Below, one piece after another: positions 3,417 through 57,126 of a DNA stretch of 64,000 nucleotides. The stretch covers positions 1 through 64,000 of the forward strand of contig WQZF01000005.1 in assembly GCA_009780885.1 (NCBI GenBank), in the 5' to 3' direction. The first letter of the stretch is position 1. Every line of letters starts with the position of its first letter. Below the pieces are notes generated by a model. That model saw nothing but the letters and a program-made list of their open reading frames with translations. It was not told the origin of the DNA and ran no database searches. The stretch comes from Betaproteobacteria bacterium. GTDB lineage: Bacteria; Pseudomonadota; Gammaproteobacteria; Burkholderiales; Rhodocyclaceae. The position numbers and the translations under genes were made by a program.

Positions 3417-3495
3417 ATTTTCTAAATTTAATTAAATAATGTTTTATTACCGTAGTGGATATTACACTAAAATTATTTAAACAAATTTAGAAAAT
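3417..3495. repeat. AT-rich palindromic repeat, copy 1 (79 bp)
   Basis: This is one of nine copies in the window of a 78-79-bp element. It starts ATTTTCTAAATTTA, ends AAATTTAGAAAAT, and has a centre related to CTACTGTAGTG. This copy reads TTACCGTAGTGG in the centre. It lies in the gap between rpsL and the L,D-transpeptidase gene and is strongly AT-rich compared with its surroundings. No ORF or consistent target-site duplication is visible. Confidence 0.9.
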
Positions 3496-9351: not shown

Positions 9352-9429
9352 ATTTTCTAAATTACTTAAATAATAGTCCGCTACAGTAGTGATTGCAAGC
9401 AATGAATTCTTTAGTCTAATTTAGAAAAT
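9352..9429. repeat. AT-rich palindromic repeat, copy 2 (78 bp)
   Basis: Begins ATTTTCTAAATTACTTAAAT and ends TAATTTAGAAAAT, with centre CTACAGTAGTG. It lies between the Sel1 gene and glyA, about 90 bp before the glyA start, so it could influence the glyA leader. Confidence 0.9.
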
Positions 9430-12600: not shown

Positions 12601-12678
12601 ATTTTCTAAATTTACTTAAATAATGTTTCGCTACTGTAGTGATTTTTAATCAATAATTATTACAGTAATTTAGAAAAT
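12601..12678. repeat. AT-rich palindromic repeat, copy 3 (78 bp)
   Basis: A clean copy, starting ATTTTCTAAATTTACTTAAA, centre CTACTGTAGTG, ending AATTTAGAAAAT. It lies between the convergent genes ribD and the YgjP-like gene, 22 bp from the latter's stop codon. Confidence 0.92.

Positions 12679-18207: not shown

Positions 18208-18211
<4 letters not shown>
16106..18211 (-). CDS. glyS: Glycine-tRNA ligase beta subunit
   Basis: The 701-residue product, with N-terminus [23 protein letters not shown], is the beta subunit of the bacterial alpha2beta2 glycyl-tRNA synthetase, which supplies tRNA recognition. The ATG at 18211 has GGAGG eight bases upstream; the frame opens six codons earlier, but without better support. 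The ATG overlaps the glyQ stop codon by 4 bp, so translation of the two subunits is probably coupled. Length and sequence are typical of the family. Confidence 0.98.
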
Positions 18212-19101
<890 letters not shown>

Positions 19102-19130
19102 GACAGAAAAAGTCCGTGAGAGGCGGTGAA

Positions 19131-19406
19131 AAGTGAAACGGACAATTTTACTTGCTTTTGCCGCTTTTTCCGCCGCGTTGCTTTCATGAGGAATGATGAC
19201 GCACAGCGCGGGCGTCCCGCCCGCATGCGGGCAAGATGCCCGCGTTCCTGTGGGGTGTGAAACCCATAGGTTGGCGGTGAGCGCAGCGAACCTCAACATT
19301 GCTGCCAATTCGTTGGCTTTATGACGAAATTTTCTAAATTTAGTTAAAGAATGTTTCACTACTATAGTGATTATTAACTAATAATTATTATAGTAATTTA
19401 GAAAAT
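19131..19406. repeat. Long direct repeat, copy 1 (glyQ-proximal)
   Basis: This segment runs AAGTGAAACG, CTTGCTTTT, a GCGCGGGCGTC...GCCCGCGTTCC block, CTGTGGGGTGTGA, ATAGGTTGGCGGTGA, CAACATTGCTGCCAAT, then an AT-rich element. It recurs in the same order and orientation at 21281-21529. The two copies bracket the AlbA_2/AAA_4 gene. They differ by substitutions and by a shorter spacer (about 27 bp less) in copy 2. No other gene is seen in the 19102-19448 gap. Confidence 0.88.
19329..19406. repeat. AT-rich palindromic repeat, copy 4 (78 bp)
   Basis: Starts ATTTTCTAAATTTAGTTAAA and ends TAATTTAGAAAAT, with centre CTACTATAGTG. It forms the end of the long direct repeat and lies 43 bp from the stop codon of the AlbA_2/AAA_4 gene. 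Confidence 0.92.
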
Positions 19407-19448
19407 TGACCCCCCAAAACCCTCTCGTGCTCTCCCCGCTTATCCCAT

Positions 19449-21116
19449 CTACGAGCTACCGTTGGGATGCGCCTCCAGCCACTGCCGCCCGATGGCCGTC
19501 AAGCGGTAGCGTTGCAGTCGGCTGGTAGGCACGTCCGGCAGCGTCATCTCGATTAGCTGCGCAGTTAGCGCCGGTTTCAGGTAGGTTTTCCGGAAGTGCT
19601 CTTCACCCTTGAGGCAAAGTGCAGACTGAATCTGCTGCCGGGACATCTCGCCGACCACAGCGCGCAGCAGGCGCGCGACTTCACCTGTGACTTCACCTGT
19701 GACTTCACCTGTGACTTCACCTGTGACTTCACCTGTGACTTCCCCTGCGACTTCCCCTGCGACTTCCCCTGTGACTTCCCCTGTGACTTCCCCTGTGACT
19801 TCCCCTGTGACTTCCCCTGCGACTTCCCCTGTGACCACCGTAGGGGCGGACGCCAATGGATGGCGCGGCAGCCGGATTACGAACGAAATCCGGTCGTCGT
19901 CTGTCTCGAACATCGGCGACGGAGAGCCGTTGGCGGCCATTTCCTTGAGGATTTTCGGGATACCCGTTGAACGGCCTTCGGCCAGGTCAAGCTCCTTCAG
20001 AAACTCGCCGATGCGCCGATTGCGGTAGCGACGGCTGACGGCCCGGCCCGCCTGAAGGTCTTCCAAGCGAATTGACCGATCCGGGCCGGGGAAACTGACG
20101 ACGACCAACTCGTCGCGGCTGATGCGCACTTCGATGGGTTCGCGCTCTTCGTAGGAACGGTGGTAAACGGCGTTGACCACGGCCTCCTCGACAGCGGCGT
20201 AGGGAAAATTCCAGACCCGTGTGGCTTCGGCCCGGTTGGAATGCTTGATCACCGTTTCATGCAGGTAGTTGCGCTGGATGTAGCCCAAGGCCTCACGTGT
20301 CATCCGCGCCAACGGTCCCTTGAAGGTCTTTTCTTCAAAGCGGTCGCCGCCCGTGCCTTCGGGAAACCACACTACATCAATCTGCGCGTAAGGGAAAAAC
20401 CGCTCCGGGGTTTCGTTGAAGAACAACAGGCCCACGTTTTTGGGCCAGGGAGATTCGAGAGTGCCGCCCGCTATGTTCATCTGCCGCCCCAATGCTTCGA
20501 CGGAAAGCCCTGGCGCTTCCGCCGCCAATGCACTGCCTACTTCCTGCAAGAAGTCCTGCATCAAGGGTTTGGACAGATCATCGACACGGGCCGATTGGTT
20601 GTAGCGGTCGTCGAACGGCACCTTGGCGGCCAGATTCAGCAGTTCCTGTTCGGTGTCGCCCTTGGCCTCGACTGTGCTGCTGTAGCGGCGGATGTAGTAG
20701 CGCCAAGTTTTCTTCTTCGCGGTGACCAATTCTGGCGCCTTGTAAGGCCGGGTTTGCCCGCCCGGCGCCCACAGCACGATCAGGTTGCGGCCTTCGACGA
20801 CTTCCATGCTCAACACGGGGAAGTACGGCGGCTGGATCAACTGGCAGTACGCCAGCAGTTCGCGCTGGATTTTGTCGAGCTGATTGGCAGCCAGTCCGAC
20901 AGGAGGAAACACGGGCTGGCCGTTGGCGTCGCAGTCCTGCCCGATGACCACGTAACCGCCGCCCAGATTCTCGAAGTCGTTGGCAAAGGCGCAGAGCGTG
21001 CGAATGATCGGGTCCGGGTTCCACCCGGCCTTGTACTCGATGCGCTCACCTTCGACCGTGCGCTGGCGCAACAGGTCGGAGAGGTTGATGGGCAGTTTGT
21101 TACTCGAAATCGTCAT
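19449..21116 (-). CDS. AlbA_2/AAA_4 (Schlafen-like) putative DNA-binding protein with GEV[T/A] tandem repeat
   Basis: A 555-residue protein. The N-terminus (about 20-150) has the AlbA_2/AAA_4 pattern EGERIEYKAGWNPDPIIRTL followed by GGGYVVIGQD. A GHKL-like C-terminal core follows, with AAVEEAVVNAVYHRSYEERE, VVVSFPGPD and GRSTGIPKIL. Residues 429-480 are 13 tetrapeptide units of TGEV or AGEV. A winged-helix-like tail follows (MSRQQIQSALCL...LQRYRLTAIGRQWLEAHP). Proteins of this group are usually labelled transcriptional regulators or RecG-like; many are linked to mobile DNA, but their biochemistry is poorly known. The ATG at 21116 is preferred over a TTG two codons upstream. The gene is bracketed by long direct repeats, which suggests horizontal acquisition. 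Confidence 0.85.
   Translation of the reverse strand: MTISSNKLPINLSDLLRQRTVEGERIEYKAGWNPDPIIRTLCAFANDFENLGGGYVVIGQDCDANGQPVFPPVGLAANQLDKIQRELLAYCQLIQPPYFPVLSMEVVEGRNLIVLWAPGGQTRPYKAPELVTAKKKTWRYYIRRYSSTVEAKGDTEQELLNLAAKVPFDDRYNQSARVDDLSKPLMQDFLQEVGSALAAEAPGLSVEALGRQMNIAGGTLESPWPKNVGLLFFNETPERFFPYAQIDVVWFPEGTGGDRFEEKTFKGPLARMTREALGYIQRNYLHETVIKHSNRAEATRVWNFPYAAVEEAVVNAVYHRSYEEREPIEVRISRDELVVVSFPGPDRSIRLEDLQAGRAVSRRYRNRRIGEFLKELDLAEGRSTGIPKILKEMAANGSPSPMFETDDDRISFVIRLPRHPLASAPTVVTGEVAGEVTGEVTGEVTGEVTGEVAGEVAGEVTGEVTGEVTGEVTGEVTGEVARLLRAVVGEMSRQQIQSALCLKGEEHFRKTYLKPALTAQLIEMTLPDVPTSRLQRYRLTAIGRQWLEAHPNGSS
19677..19832 (-). repeat. In-frame 12-bp tandem repeat, 13 units
   Basis: Thirteen consecutive 12-bp units (plus-strand form GACTTCACCTGT or GACTTCCCCTGT/C) encode GEVT/GEVA tetrapeptides within the AlbA_2/AAA_4 gene. 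Units differ at only two positions, and blocks of identical units are adjacent (five TCACC units, then TCCCC units), as expected of recent expansion. Any gain or loss keeps the frame. Confidence 0.97.
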
Positions 21117-21280
21117 TACCAAAGCTCAGTATCAAATCTCTGTGTGAAATTCCGAGACAGCGTCTCGGAAATCTTTGCGGGGATGGATTTGGCAGACATG
21201 GTCTGCCAAATCCGCTCCGGCGACCAAGACAGATAGAACATCTGCATGTCTTGCAGATTGCGTCGACTGAAGCGACTGCC

Positions 21281-21529
21281 AAGTGAAACGAGAAATTCTA
21301 CTTGCTTTTTCTGCTGCGCAAGAAAGGAGCGCGGGCGTCTCGCCCGCCTGCGGGCAAGACGCCCGCGTTCCTGTGGGGTGTGAGGCTCATAGGTTGGCGG
21401 TGAACGCAGCGAACCCCAACATTGCTGCCAATCCGTTGATTTTATGGTGATATTTTCTAAATTTACTTAAAGAATGATTAGCTACTGTAGTAATTATTAT
21501 TTAAGAATTATTACAGTAATTTAGAAAAT
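21281..21529. repeat. Long direct repeat, copy 2
   Basis: The same ordered blocks as 19131-19406: AAGTGAAACG, CTTGCTTTT, GCGCGGGCGTC...GCCCGCGTTCC, CTGTGGGGTGTGA, ATAGGTTGGCGGTGA, CAACATTGCTGCCAAT, and an AT-rich element. The gap 21117-21706 otherwise contains no gene that I can support, and must hold promoters for the AAA_4 gene (minus) and the two-gene cassette (plus). Confidence 0.88.
21452..21529. repeat. AT-rich palindromic repeat, copy 5 (78 bp)
   Basis: Starts ATTTTCTAAATTTACTTAAA and ends TAATTTAGAAAAT, with centre CTACTGTAGTA. It is the terminal block of long direct repeat copy 2. Confidence 0.92.
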
Positions 21530-21706
21530 CATGTGCCGAAAAACTCTCGGGGCAGCAAGGGAAAGGGGGATTTCTGGGGTGAGATAGAATTGCAGAATAA
21601 GAGCCGTAGTGCCGTCTACATGGTGCGCTTCGCCTGATAATCCGCTCCTGCGCAGCCGGCTGGTTATGCTGTCTGCCTGCCGCTGACTTTCGTCCTTAGA
21701 CTGTTC

Positions 21707-22036
21707 ATGTCCGAATTTCTTTATTACGAGCCCAAAGATAGAAATGGTCACCGTATCCAGGTCGGTGACAGGGTTCGTATTGTTGGCATGCCCGACTTAA
21801 GCGGCATGACGCCCGAAGGTATTGCCGAATCCCGACCGGTGTTTGAGTACCTGATAGGGCGCTACAAGAGGATCGTCGAGTTCGATGAGTTTGGTTTCGC
21901 GTGGTTTTATTTCCGTATTCCAGGCTGTAAGTTCAAGGGGCTTCACTCCGTCGCAATTGAACCGTCCCTGCTTCATCTGCCGCGCTCGCGGTCCGACACC
22001 TCATTCCAGCGGACAGTCGCTGGTCTTGTTCCTTAG
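21707..22036 (+). CDS. Hypothetical protein, first gene of an ATPase cassette
   Basis: A 109-residue protein that I do not recognise. It begins MSEFLYYEPKDRNGHRIQVG. The segment RIQVGDRVRIVGMPDLSGMTPEG resembles a small beta-barrel (KOW/SH3-like) start, and the middle is aromatic (FGFAWFYFRIPG). There is no signal peptide or membrane segment. It ends 9 bp before a small AAA ATPase gene on the same strand, so the two are probably cotranscribed and functionally linked. The pair lies in the accessory islet between glyQ and the cardiolipin synthase gene. Confidence 0.65.
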   Translation: MSEFLYYEPKDRNGHRIQVGDRVRIVGMPDLSGMTPEGIAESRPVFEYLIGRYKRIVEFDEFGFAWFYFRIPGCKFKGLHSVAIEPSLLHLPRSRSDTSFQRTVAGLVP

Positions 22037-22045
22037 GTATCCAGC

Positions 22046-22786
22046 ATGGCTCGGCGCTCCAAACCTTATCTGCTGCACGCATCGTTTCGTTCCGATGTTG
22101 ATCTGGATTTCAACGAGTATCCCTTCAACATCCCGGCGGTACGGCAGCTCGAAAGCATTGAGTTCCACCCGAACCTTACTTTCTTTGTCGGCGAGAACGG
22201 ATCCGGCAAGTCGACCGTGCTGGAGGCGATCGCCATAGCCCTTGGATTTGGTGCTGAGGGAGGCACCAAAAATGTACAGTTTCGCACCGTCGAATCAGTG
22301 TCGCCTCTGCATAAAGCGCTGCGCCTGGCTCGTGGTGTTCCGCAACCGCGAGATGCTTACTTCCTGCGTGCCGAAAGCTTTTTCAACGTGGCGTCCTATA
22401 TGGATGGAGTCGGCTATCTTGAGAGCTACGGTGGCTCGCTGCACGCGCGGTCTCACGGTGAAGCATTCATGGCCGTGCTACTCAACAAGCTCAAGGGAAA
22501 CGGGATTTATCTCTTCGATGAGCCGGAGGCAGCATTGTCCCCTGGTCGACAGATGGCGGCACTCAGCGCCATCCATCAATTGGTGGAGGCTTCATCGCAG
22601 TTCATTATCGCCACTCACTCACCGATCCTGCTTTCTTATCCCCGCGCCAGGATCATCCAGTTCGATCGTTCGGGCATTGGCGAAGTCGCCTACGAAGAGA
22701 CTGAGCACTATGCTGTCACGCGCGACTTTCTCAACAACTACCCTCGGCGGCTGGAGCAACTGCTTGGCGATGACGAGGAGGCCTGA
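22046..22786 (+). CDS. Small ABC/SMC-type AAA ATPase
   Basis: This 246-residue protein has Walker A GENGSGKST at 49-57, a signature-like SHGE at 136-139, Walker B IYLFDEPE at 154-161 and the switch histidine in IATHSP (His191). This is the compact AAA_21/AAA_23-like ABC ATPase layout, without a long coiled coil or a TOPRIM nuclease. Relatives are found alone and as the ATPase subunit of defence or mobile-element systems; the function here is unknown. It follows the 109-residue gene by 9 bp. Downstream, clsB is convergent and 21 bp away. Confidence 0.88.
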   Translation: MARRSKPYLLHASFRSDVDLDFNEYPFNIPAVRQLESIEFHPNLTFFVGENGSGKSTVLEAIAIALGFGAEGGTKNVQFRTVESVSPLHKALRLARGVPQPRDAYFLRAESFFNVASYMDGVGYLESYGGSLHARSHGEAFMAVLLNKLKGNGIYLFDEPEAALSPGRQMAALSAIHQLVEASSQFIIATHSPILLSYPRARIIQFDRSGIGEVAYEETEHYAVTRDFLNNYPRRLEQLLGDDEEA

Positions 22787-25514: not shown

Positions 25515-25593
25515 ATTTTCTAAATTTGTTTAAATAATTATTTGATGAAAATCACTACCGTAGCGAAACATTATTTAAGTAAATTTAGAAAAT
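25515..25593. repeat. AT-rich palindromic repeat, copy 6 (79 bp, inverted)
   Basis: Opposite orientation to copies 1-5: centre CACTACCGTAGCGAAACATT, ends ATTTTCTAAATTTG and AAATTTAGAAAAT. It lies 36 bp downstream of the ycgR stop. Confidence 0.9.
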
Positions 25594-40695: not shown

Positions 40696-40774
40696 ATTTT
40701 CTAAATCTGTTTAAATAATGTTTCGCTACTGTAAAAAGTTTAGTTAAAGAATTATTTAAACAGATTTAGAAAAT
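40696..40774. repeat. AT-rich palindromic repeat, copy 7 (79 bp)
   Basis: Starts ATTTTCTAAATCTGTTTAAA and ends TTTAAACAGATTTAGAAAAT: the outer 20 bases form a perfect inverted repeat with compensating changes (T to C / A to G) against other copies. The centre is altered (CTACTGTAAAAAG). It begins 9 bp upstream of the CIRCE operator, in the rpoH promoter region. Confidence 0.93.
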
Positions 40775-47964: not shown

Positions 47965-48043
47965 ATTTTCTAAATTTACTTAAATAATGTTTCACTACTG
48001 TAGTGTTTTTAAATCAAGAATTATTTAAACAAATTTAGAAAAT
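47965..48043. repeat. AT-rich palindromic repeat, copy 8 (79 bp)
   Basis: Starts ATTTTCTAAATTTACTTAAA and ends TTTAAACAAATTTAGAAAAT, with centre CTACTGTAGTG. It lies between the pilin-like gene and the large exported-protein gene. The 47667-48152 gap contains no recognised gene. Confidence 0.92.
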
Positions 48044-57048: not shown

Positions 57049-57126
57049 TTTTTCTAAATTACTGTAATAATTCTTTGCTAAAAACCACTACAGTAGCGAA
57101 ACATTATTTAAGTAAATTTAGAAAAT
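57049..57126. repeat. AT-rich palindromic repeat, copy 9 (78 bp, inverted)
   Basis: Starts TTTTTCTAAATTACTGTAAT and ends AAGTAAATTTAGAAAAT, with centre CACTACAGTAGCGAAACATT. It lies between the nuclease gene and the convergent addB, 9 bp from the addB stop, marking the edge of the insertion. Confidence 0.92.

Follow-up and report, generated by a model that had tools for sequence, protein, structure and literature searches.

At this locus, two minus-strand genes are each preceded by one copy of a composite block. The window, meaning the whole 64,000-nt stretch of DNA that was analysed, carries glyQ at 18208–19101 (minus strand), encoding the alpha subunit of glycyl-tRNA synthetase (Pfam tRNA-synt_2e, E 2.8e-151), and an accessory gene at 19449–21116 (minus strand). 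The 555–557-aa product of the latter harbors SLFN_AlbA_2, HATPase_c_4, and Fic-like_C domains; AAA_4, the name under which it was first described, is an older name of one of these. Its two halves are joined by approximately 13 in-frame 12-bp repeats (GEVT/GEVA, 19675–19835), the number of which seems to vary among homologues. Block copy 1 (19131–19406, minus strand) lies upstream of glyQ and block copy 2 (21281–21529, minus strand) upstream of the accessory gene.

The duplicated block and its site

The preliminary description reported direct repeats at these coordinates, in the same order and orientation, and alignment of the two copies bears this out. Positions 19205–19406 and 21328–21529 share 178 of 202 nt in an ungapped alignment, and the first modules (19131–19165 and 21281–21315) share 29 of 35 nt; between these two parts, copy 1 has 27 nt more than copy 2. 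In a search of the genome itself, the match to copy 2 has an E value of 2.8e-69, far beyond chance. Each repeat had also been said to end in an AT-rich element, and the right-hand limits of the copies (19406 and 21529) in fact coincide exactly with the end of a 78-bp AT-rich element. The repeats likewise flank the accessory gene only, with a single gene call between them. The copies have diverged by 12%, and their longest common identical run is 23 nt.

Along the minus strand, starting at its right-hand side, the block comprises the 78-bp element, then the REP-like and GC-rich palindromes, and lastly a promoter-like module. The elements (19329–19406 and 21452–21529, both plus strand) belong to subfamily A. 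They are 87% identical and rank 11 and 22 of 105 among each other's kin, so they are not nearest relatives; at a separation of 2.05 kb, they form one of the few close element pairs. By this divergence, together with that of the block as a whole, the block copies are old. The REP-like palindromes (ATAGGTTGG...CCTCAAC in copy 1) occupy 19266–19300 and 21389–21423 (plus strand). The GC-rich palindromes lie at 19207–19244 and at 21330–21367 (minus strand), the latter with a 17-pair stem.

When the 171-nt non-element part was used as a query against the whole genome, 20 places were found (40 of 41 candidates scored), and besides the query itself only block copy 1 aligned over more than 100 nt. The GC palindrome has one further copy (C34:17315–17359, 91% over 46 nt). 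The refutation allowed for at the outset, that these are simply common intergenic repeats, is half borne out: the AT-rich tail occurs at hundreds of places and the REP-like part at 13 further ones, but the whole block occurs only twice. What sets the bracket apart is this restriction of the complete block, promoter module included, to two places.

The promoter-like module contains a −10-like hexamer, TAAAAT at 19145–19150 and TAGAAT at 21295–21300 (both minus strand). In 19 of 23 relatives, TARAAT lies no more than 80 nt from the glyQ start, compared with 1, 0, and 0 of 23 in three control windows further upstream and a mean of 0.5 (maximum 3) in shuffled sequences. As had been claimed, the glyQ upstream region lies within copy 1, whose first module carries the conserved hexamer. 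A sigma-70 consensus scan listed no promoter at either hexamer, and the proposed promoter function is therefore drawn from conservation. Copy 1 would thus serve glyQ, and copy 2 has the same direction as the accessory gene, its hexamer lying about 180 nt ahead of the ATG.

The lnt gene precedes glyQ in at least 10 of the 23 relatives (up to 1.5 kb upstream examined). In the present genome, it is found on another contig (C10:455–1705), at the contig end. Given this loss of the usual neighbor and the other contexts in which the accessory gene is found elsewhere, the site was rearranged and a block was duplicated. Adjoining lnt on C10 is a 121–122-nt sequence (L200:1–122) that, among the contigs sampled, is identical at the starts of C6, C9, C10, and C45; it is probably present in many copies and located where the assembly breaks.

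A search of public genomes with the accessory gene found 138 related stretches. At the best 80 of these 138, DNA homology extends over 19452–21122 at most and ends with the open reading frame, and at none of the 80 is glyQ detected within the flanks covered. With homologues in other contexts, the gene is accessory and, judged by its distribution, mobile. Two more, weaker relatives are present in the same genome, on C23 and C92. Three proteins encoded at the gene and next to it were scanned and show no recombinase or transposase domain.

A 78-bp element with near-invariant ends

The pattern ATTTTCTAAATT-N-AATTTAGAAAAT has 208 exact-end matches in 2.63 Mb of the genome. A profile search of 1,175,663 nt from 21 contigs yields 153 copies, 90 of which have both ends exact; when scaled, these counts give an estimate of roughly 340–355 copies in all. 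In the window, further copies lie at 3417–3495, 9352–9429, 12601–12678, and 47965–48043 (plus strand) at 25515–25593 (minus strand), and at 40696–40774 (plus strand) and 57049–57126 (minus strand).

The length of the element is nearly fixed: 150 of the 153 copies measure 78 (114 copies) or 79 (36 copies) nt, the others being 72, 75, and 80 nt long. The termini are 12-bp inverted ends, whose inner 8 nt, TTCTAAAT, are exact in 148 of 153 copies at each end. The G+C content is 0.20, compared with 0.54 in other intergenic DNA. Three subfamilies are distinguished by their arms, 23 or 24 nt long, on either side of a core containing CTACNGTAG.

Substitutions relative to the subfamily consensus total 1447 over 150 copies, and just 3 more copies depart in length, whereas alignments of BIMEs from the same genome contain 1103 mismatches and 228 gap openings. 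By BLAST the contrast is smaller, since gaps also appear in alignments within the element subfamilies (3965 alignments, with 1736 gap openings per 46419 mismatches). We read these openings as alignment artefacts, the aligned copies being nearly all of equal length, although compensating pairs of indels are possible. Symmetric positions in the arms vary independently, with no compensation beyond the subfamily differences; an RNA stem as the conserved form of the element was rejected on this basis.

A search of 862 kb of the genome found no larger element bearing these ends. The end motif alone has 4 degenerate matches in these 862 kb, two of which make up one more degenerate copy of the element. 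Flanks of 106 copies show no excess of matches at 2–9 nt of the kind that a target-site duplication would leave. Queries made by joining the two flanks of each of the 153 copies returned one suggestive empty site; two other bridging matches were discounted, one being the query's own flank and the other poorly aligned.

Beyond this genome, the element was not found in sets of 61, 399, and 101 genomes, which overlap and include no other species of the genus, nor at the 80 best of the 138 loci around accessory-gene homologues. In five relatives, of which 26–80 kb each were searched for AT-rich repeats of a like kind, no AT-rich 12-mer exceeded 2 copies, compared with 18 such 12-mers in 80 kb of the present genome. 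An exact-end pattern search of IMG/VR, whose public collection may omit this genome, returned no copy. Plasmid and phage collections, to which the same reservation applies, matched in part only, in 2 and 4 records, respectively, with less than 80% of the query covered in each and E ≥ 0.01 throughout. Rfam has no family that matches the window at gathering scores, and within 19000–21700 there are sub-threshold matches only. A full-text literature search on ATTTTCTAAATT matched only papers titled on other subjects, and among the matches listed for spaced or immune bacterial repeats none appeared to describe the element, which is apparently undescribed so far.

Several features of the element recall MITEs such as Correia/NEMIS and ERIC. 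According to a review (PMC10969869), MITEs are typically AT-rich, intergenic, and variable in size, their target repeats are present when young and fade with age, and those of pneumococcus may cluster. The 78-bp element is likewise short, AT-rich, non-coding, and intergenic (one of 153 copies overlaps a gene call), has terminal inverted repeats, is present in high copy, and forms subfamilies. It differs in its nearly fixed length, in the mutual avoidance of its copies, and in the absence of a target duplication (106 copies, 2–9-nt flanks); no autonomous relative was seen in the 862 kb searched.

The REP family of the genome provides a second comparison. An inverted pair of ATAGGTTGG lies beside a Y1_Tnp (RAYT-like) gene at L054:12480–13330 on contig C4 (E 6.9e-5; 23.9 bits, the cut-off being 23), which is flanked by further palindromes, of the GTAGGATGGGT family. 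This makes the middle module of the block one of the REP kind, a dispersed palindrome linked to a RAYT gene, with the head ATAG rather than GTAG in the copies read. The GTAGGATGGGT palindromes number 82 in 1.18 Mb and are clustered. REPs are reported to lie mainly between convergent and codirectional genes (PMC3733652), and MITEs and REPINs depend on a transposase encoded elsewhere (PMC3116915). The 78-bp element shares the preference for convergent and codirectional gaps reported there. Unlike the REP, BIME, and REPIN sequences of RAYT transposases, it is AT-rich and has no GTAG head with a hairpin next to it; its spacing is even, in contrast to the clustered REPs of the same genome. Its CTACNGTAG motif is central and not present in all copies, and inspection found no hairpin adjoining it as in REPs or REPINs.

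DNA uptake sequences also occur in many copies, often near gene ends and spaced, and the element resembles them in all three respects. In contrast to them, it is a 78-bp composite, and its end motif alone appears in 862 kb only as the 4 degenerate matches.

Location and spacing of the element

Placement was scored against the calls of a home-made gene caller, not a standard one. Among the 153 copies, 1 overlaps a gene call and 1 lies at an edge, while convergent gaps contain 55, codirectional gaps 84, and divergent gaps 12. Expressed as gaps occupied, these are 54 of 114 convergent, 81 of 457 codirectional, and 12 of 125 divergent; on gap length, the 147 occupied gaps would be expected to divide into 27, 81, and 38, respectively. 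Within codirectional gaps, the element is nearer to the stop of the upstream gene in 61 of 84 cases (p 4e-5) and is oriented against the genes in 56 of 84 (p 0.003). Of 106 copies, 35 have a T-run ending 3–10 nt off one end of the element, whereas the A-run control gives 5. The T-runs fall outside the element, which often lies 6–8 nt past them.

The copies keep apart from one another. Under a null in which labels were permuted among gaps of the same type and length class, distances between elements shorter than 2.5 kb number 12 versus 31.6 expected (sd 4.3), those shorter than 4 kb number 28 versus 53.9, and the dispersion index in 20-kb bins is 0.37 versus 0.81, none of the 2000 permutations being as extreme in any of the three. 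Pairs less than 3 kb apart number 17 versus 42.8 expected, and counts are near the null beyond 4.5 kb. Gaps longer than 15 kb (9 versus 12 expected) are not significantly depleted, and in convergent gaps alone the spacing is not over-regular (CV 0.87 versus 0.79). The 50 REP-bearing gaps, put through the same permutation test, show clustering (9 versus 3.9 expected below 2.5 kb).

Three candidate causes or correlates of this pattern were rejected. Deletion between close direct pairs predicts the opposite of what is found, as pairs below 2.5 kb are mostly direct (11 direct, 4 inverted; 70 and 64 below 10 kb), avoidance being stronger between inverted than between direct pairs. Avoidance specific to subfamilies is contradicted by the even division of the 30 adjacent pairs below 4 kb (15 within, 15 between subfamilies). 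Orientation shows no bias with GC skew, 69 copies agreeing and 84 disagreeing.

Origin of the bracket and nature of the element

The two block copies are a duplication of the glyQ upstream region. Following an old rearrangement that separated glyQ from lnt, the accessory SLFN-type gene stands between the block copies such that each minus-strand gene has its own upstream block, possibly with common expression. The 78-bp element, in turn, most likely spread by a mobile mechanism in which a putative partner enzyme recognizes the near-invariant inverted ends. Such a mechanism would settle the element at the ends of transcription units, often 6–8 nt past a T-run, and a resident copy would deter insertion within about 3 kb of it, much as transposition immunity does. 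This joint account, in which the element is a lineage-restricted, non-autonomous short interspersed repeat, is the best explanation at hand, and we consider it on balance probable. Several results count against it, including the lack of a target duplication and, in 862 kb, of any larger element sharing its ends, the spacing in convergent gaps, the distant kinship of the two block elements, and the sigma-70 scan without the proposed promoters. Against mobility in particular, divergent copies with almost no change in length resemble a constrained site more than decaying mobile DNA.

The bracket had been likened to a gene gained by recombination between repeats or to a tandem duplication with an insertion. 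The accessory nature of the gene, the rearranged site, and the duplicated block agree with this, but its further development into an excisable or recombinationally acquired cassette, freed as a 2.1-kb circle by recombination between the direct copies, is improbable. True direct repeats do surround one accessory gene that elsewhere sits in unrelated contexts. However, with copies 12% diverged and a longest identical run of 23 nt, such excision would be inefficient; moreover, the repeated parts are host sequence (glyQ promoter, REP, and 78-bp element) and not an attachment site, and the flanking proteins scanned include no recombinase. That dispersed repeats instead landed on both sides of the gene by chance is the least credible reading. 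The element and the REP-like module are dispersed, and 9 of 68 adjacent element pairs are less than 2.5 kb apart, 6 of them direct, yet outside this pair of places nothing matches the promoter module or the stretches that join the modules, and their order is the same in both. On the duplication account, the seeming cassette bracket is thus a duplicated promoter region.

As for the element itself, it could have a chromosomal function, as an array of fixed length to which a DNA-binding protein attaches so as to organize the chromosome or insulate transcription units, with roughly even spacing maintained by selection. We regard this as possible though unlikely. In favor of such a site are a length that stays rigid while 150 copies carry 1447 substitutions, near-invariant ends without stem-like covariation, regular spacing, and placement between transcription units, but the element was not found in the other genera searched, the pair correlation shows short-range avoidance only (gaps longer than 15 kb, 9 versus 12), the subfamilies resemble founder expansions, and orientation is not biased with GC skew. 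In its most specific form, with 78/79-bp copies bound chromosome-wide by a predicted lineage-specific nucleoid or insulator protein at transcription-unit ends, held on average about 7–8 kb apart by selection and marking domains, the proposal is a more doubtful one. Compared with mobile spread, a protein-binding site kept evenly placed by selection accounts better for the rigid length but less well for the lineage restriction and the short range of the effect. An action as RNA, either as a 3′-UTR stem-loop or as a bidirectional terminator, seems quite unlikely. The position at gene 3′ ends, the T-runs near the element ends, and mean fold energies over 30 copies of −15.9 and −13.2 kcal/mol for the two strands, versus −8.0 for simple shuffles, would suit it, but the outer arms lack compensatory changes, no Rfam family matches in the window at gathering scores, and the T-runs are external to the element.

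Small repeats in bacterial genomes tend to be regarded as dispersed mobile debris, and clustering is indeed what the REPs here show. A self-avoiding family of near-fixed length would offer a natural test between transposition immunity of a non-autonomous element and selection for chromosome organization.

Two further features of the locus lie outside the block copies. Between copy 2 and the start of the accessory gene, three palindromes stand in a row at 21150–21260 (CCGAGACAGCGTCTCGG, GGATTTGGCAGACATGGTCTGCCAAATCC, and ATCTGC...GCAGAT) and are absent from the DNA common to the gene's homologous loci. On the other side of copy 2, at 21707–22786, a 109-aa protein without a Pfam match is followed by an AAA_15/AAA_21 ATPase that, at scores below the NCBIfam cut-offs, resembles the defence ATPases PtuA and AriA.
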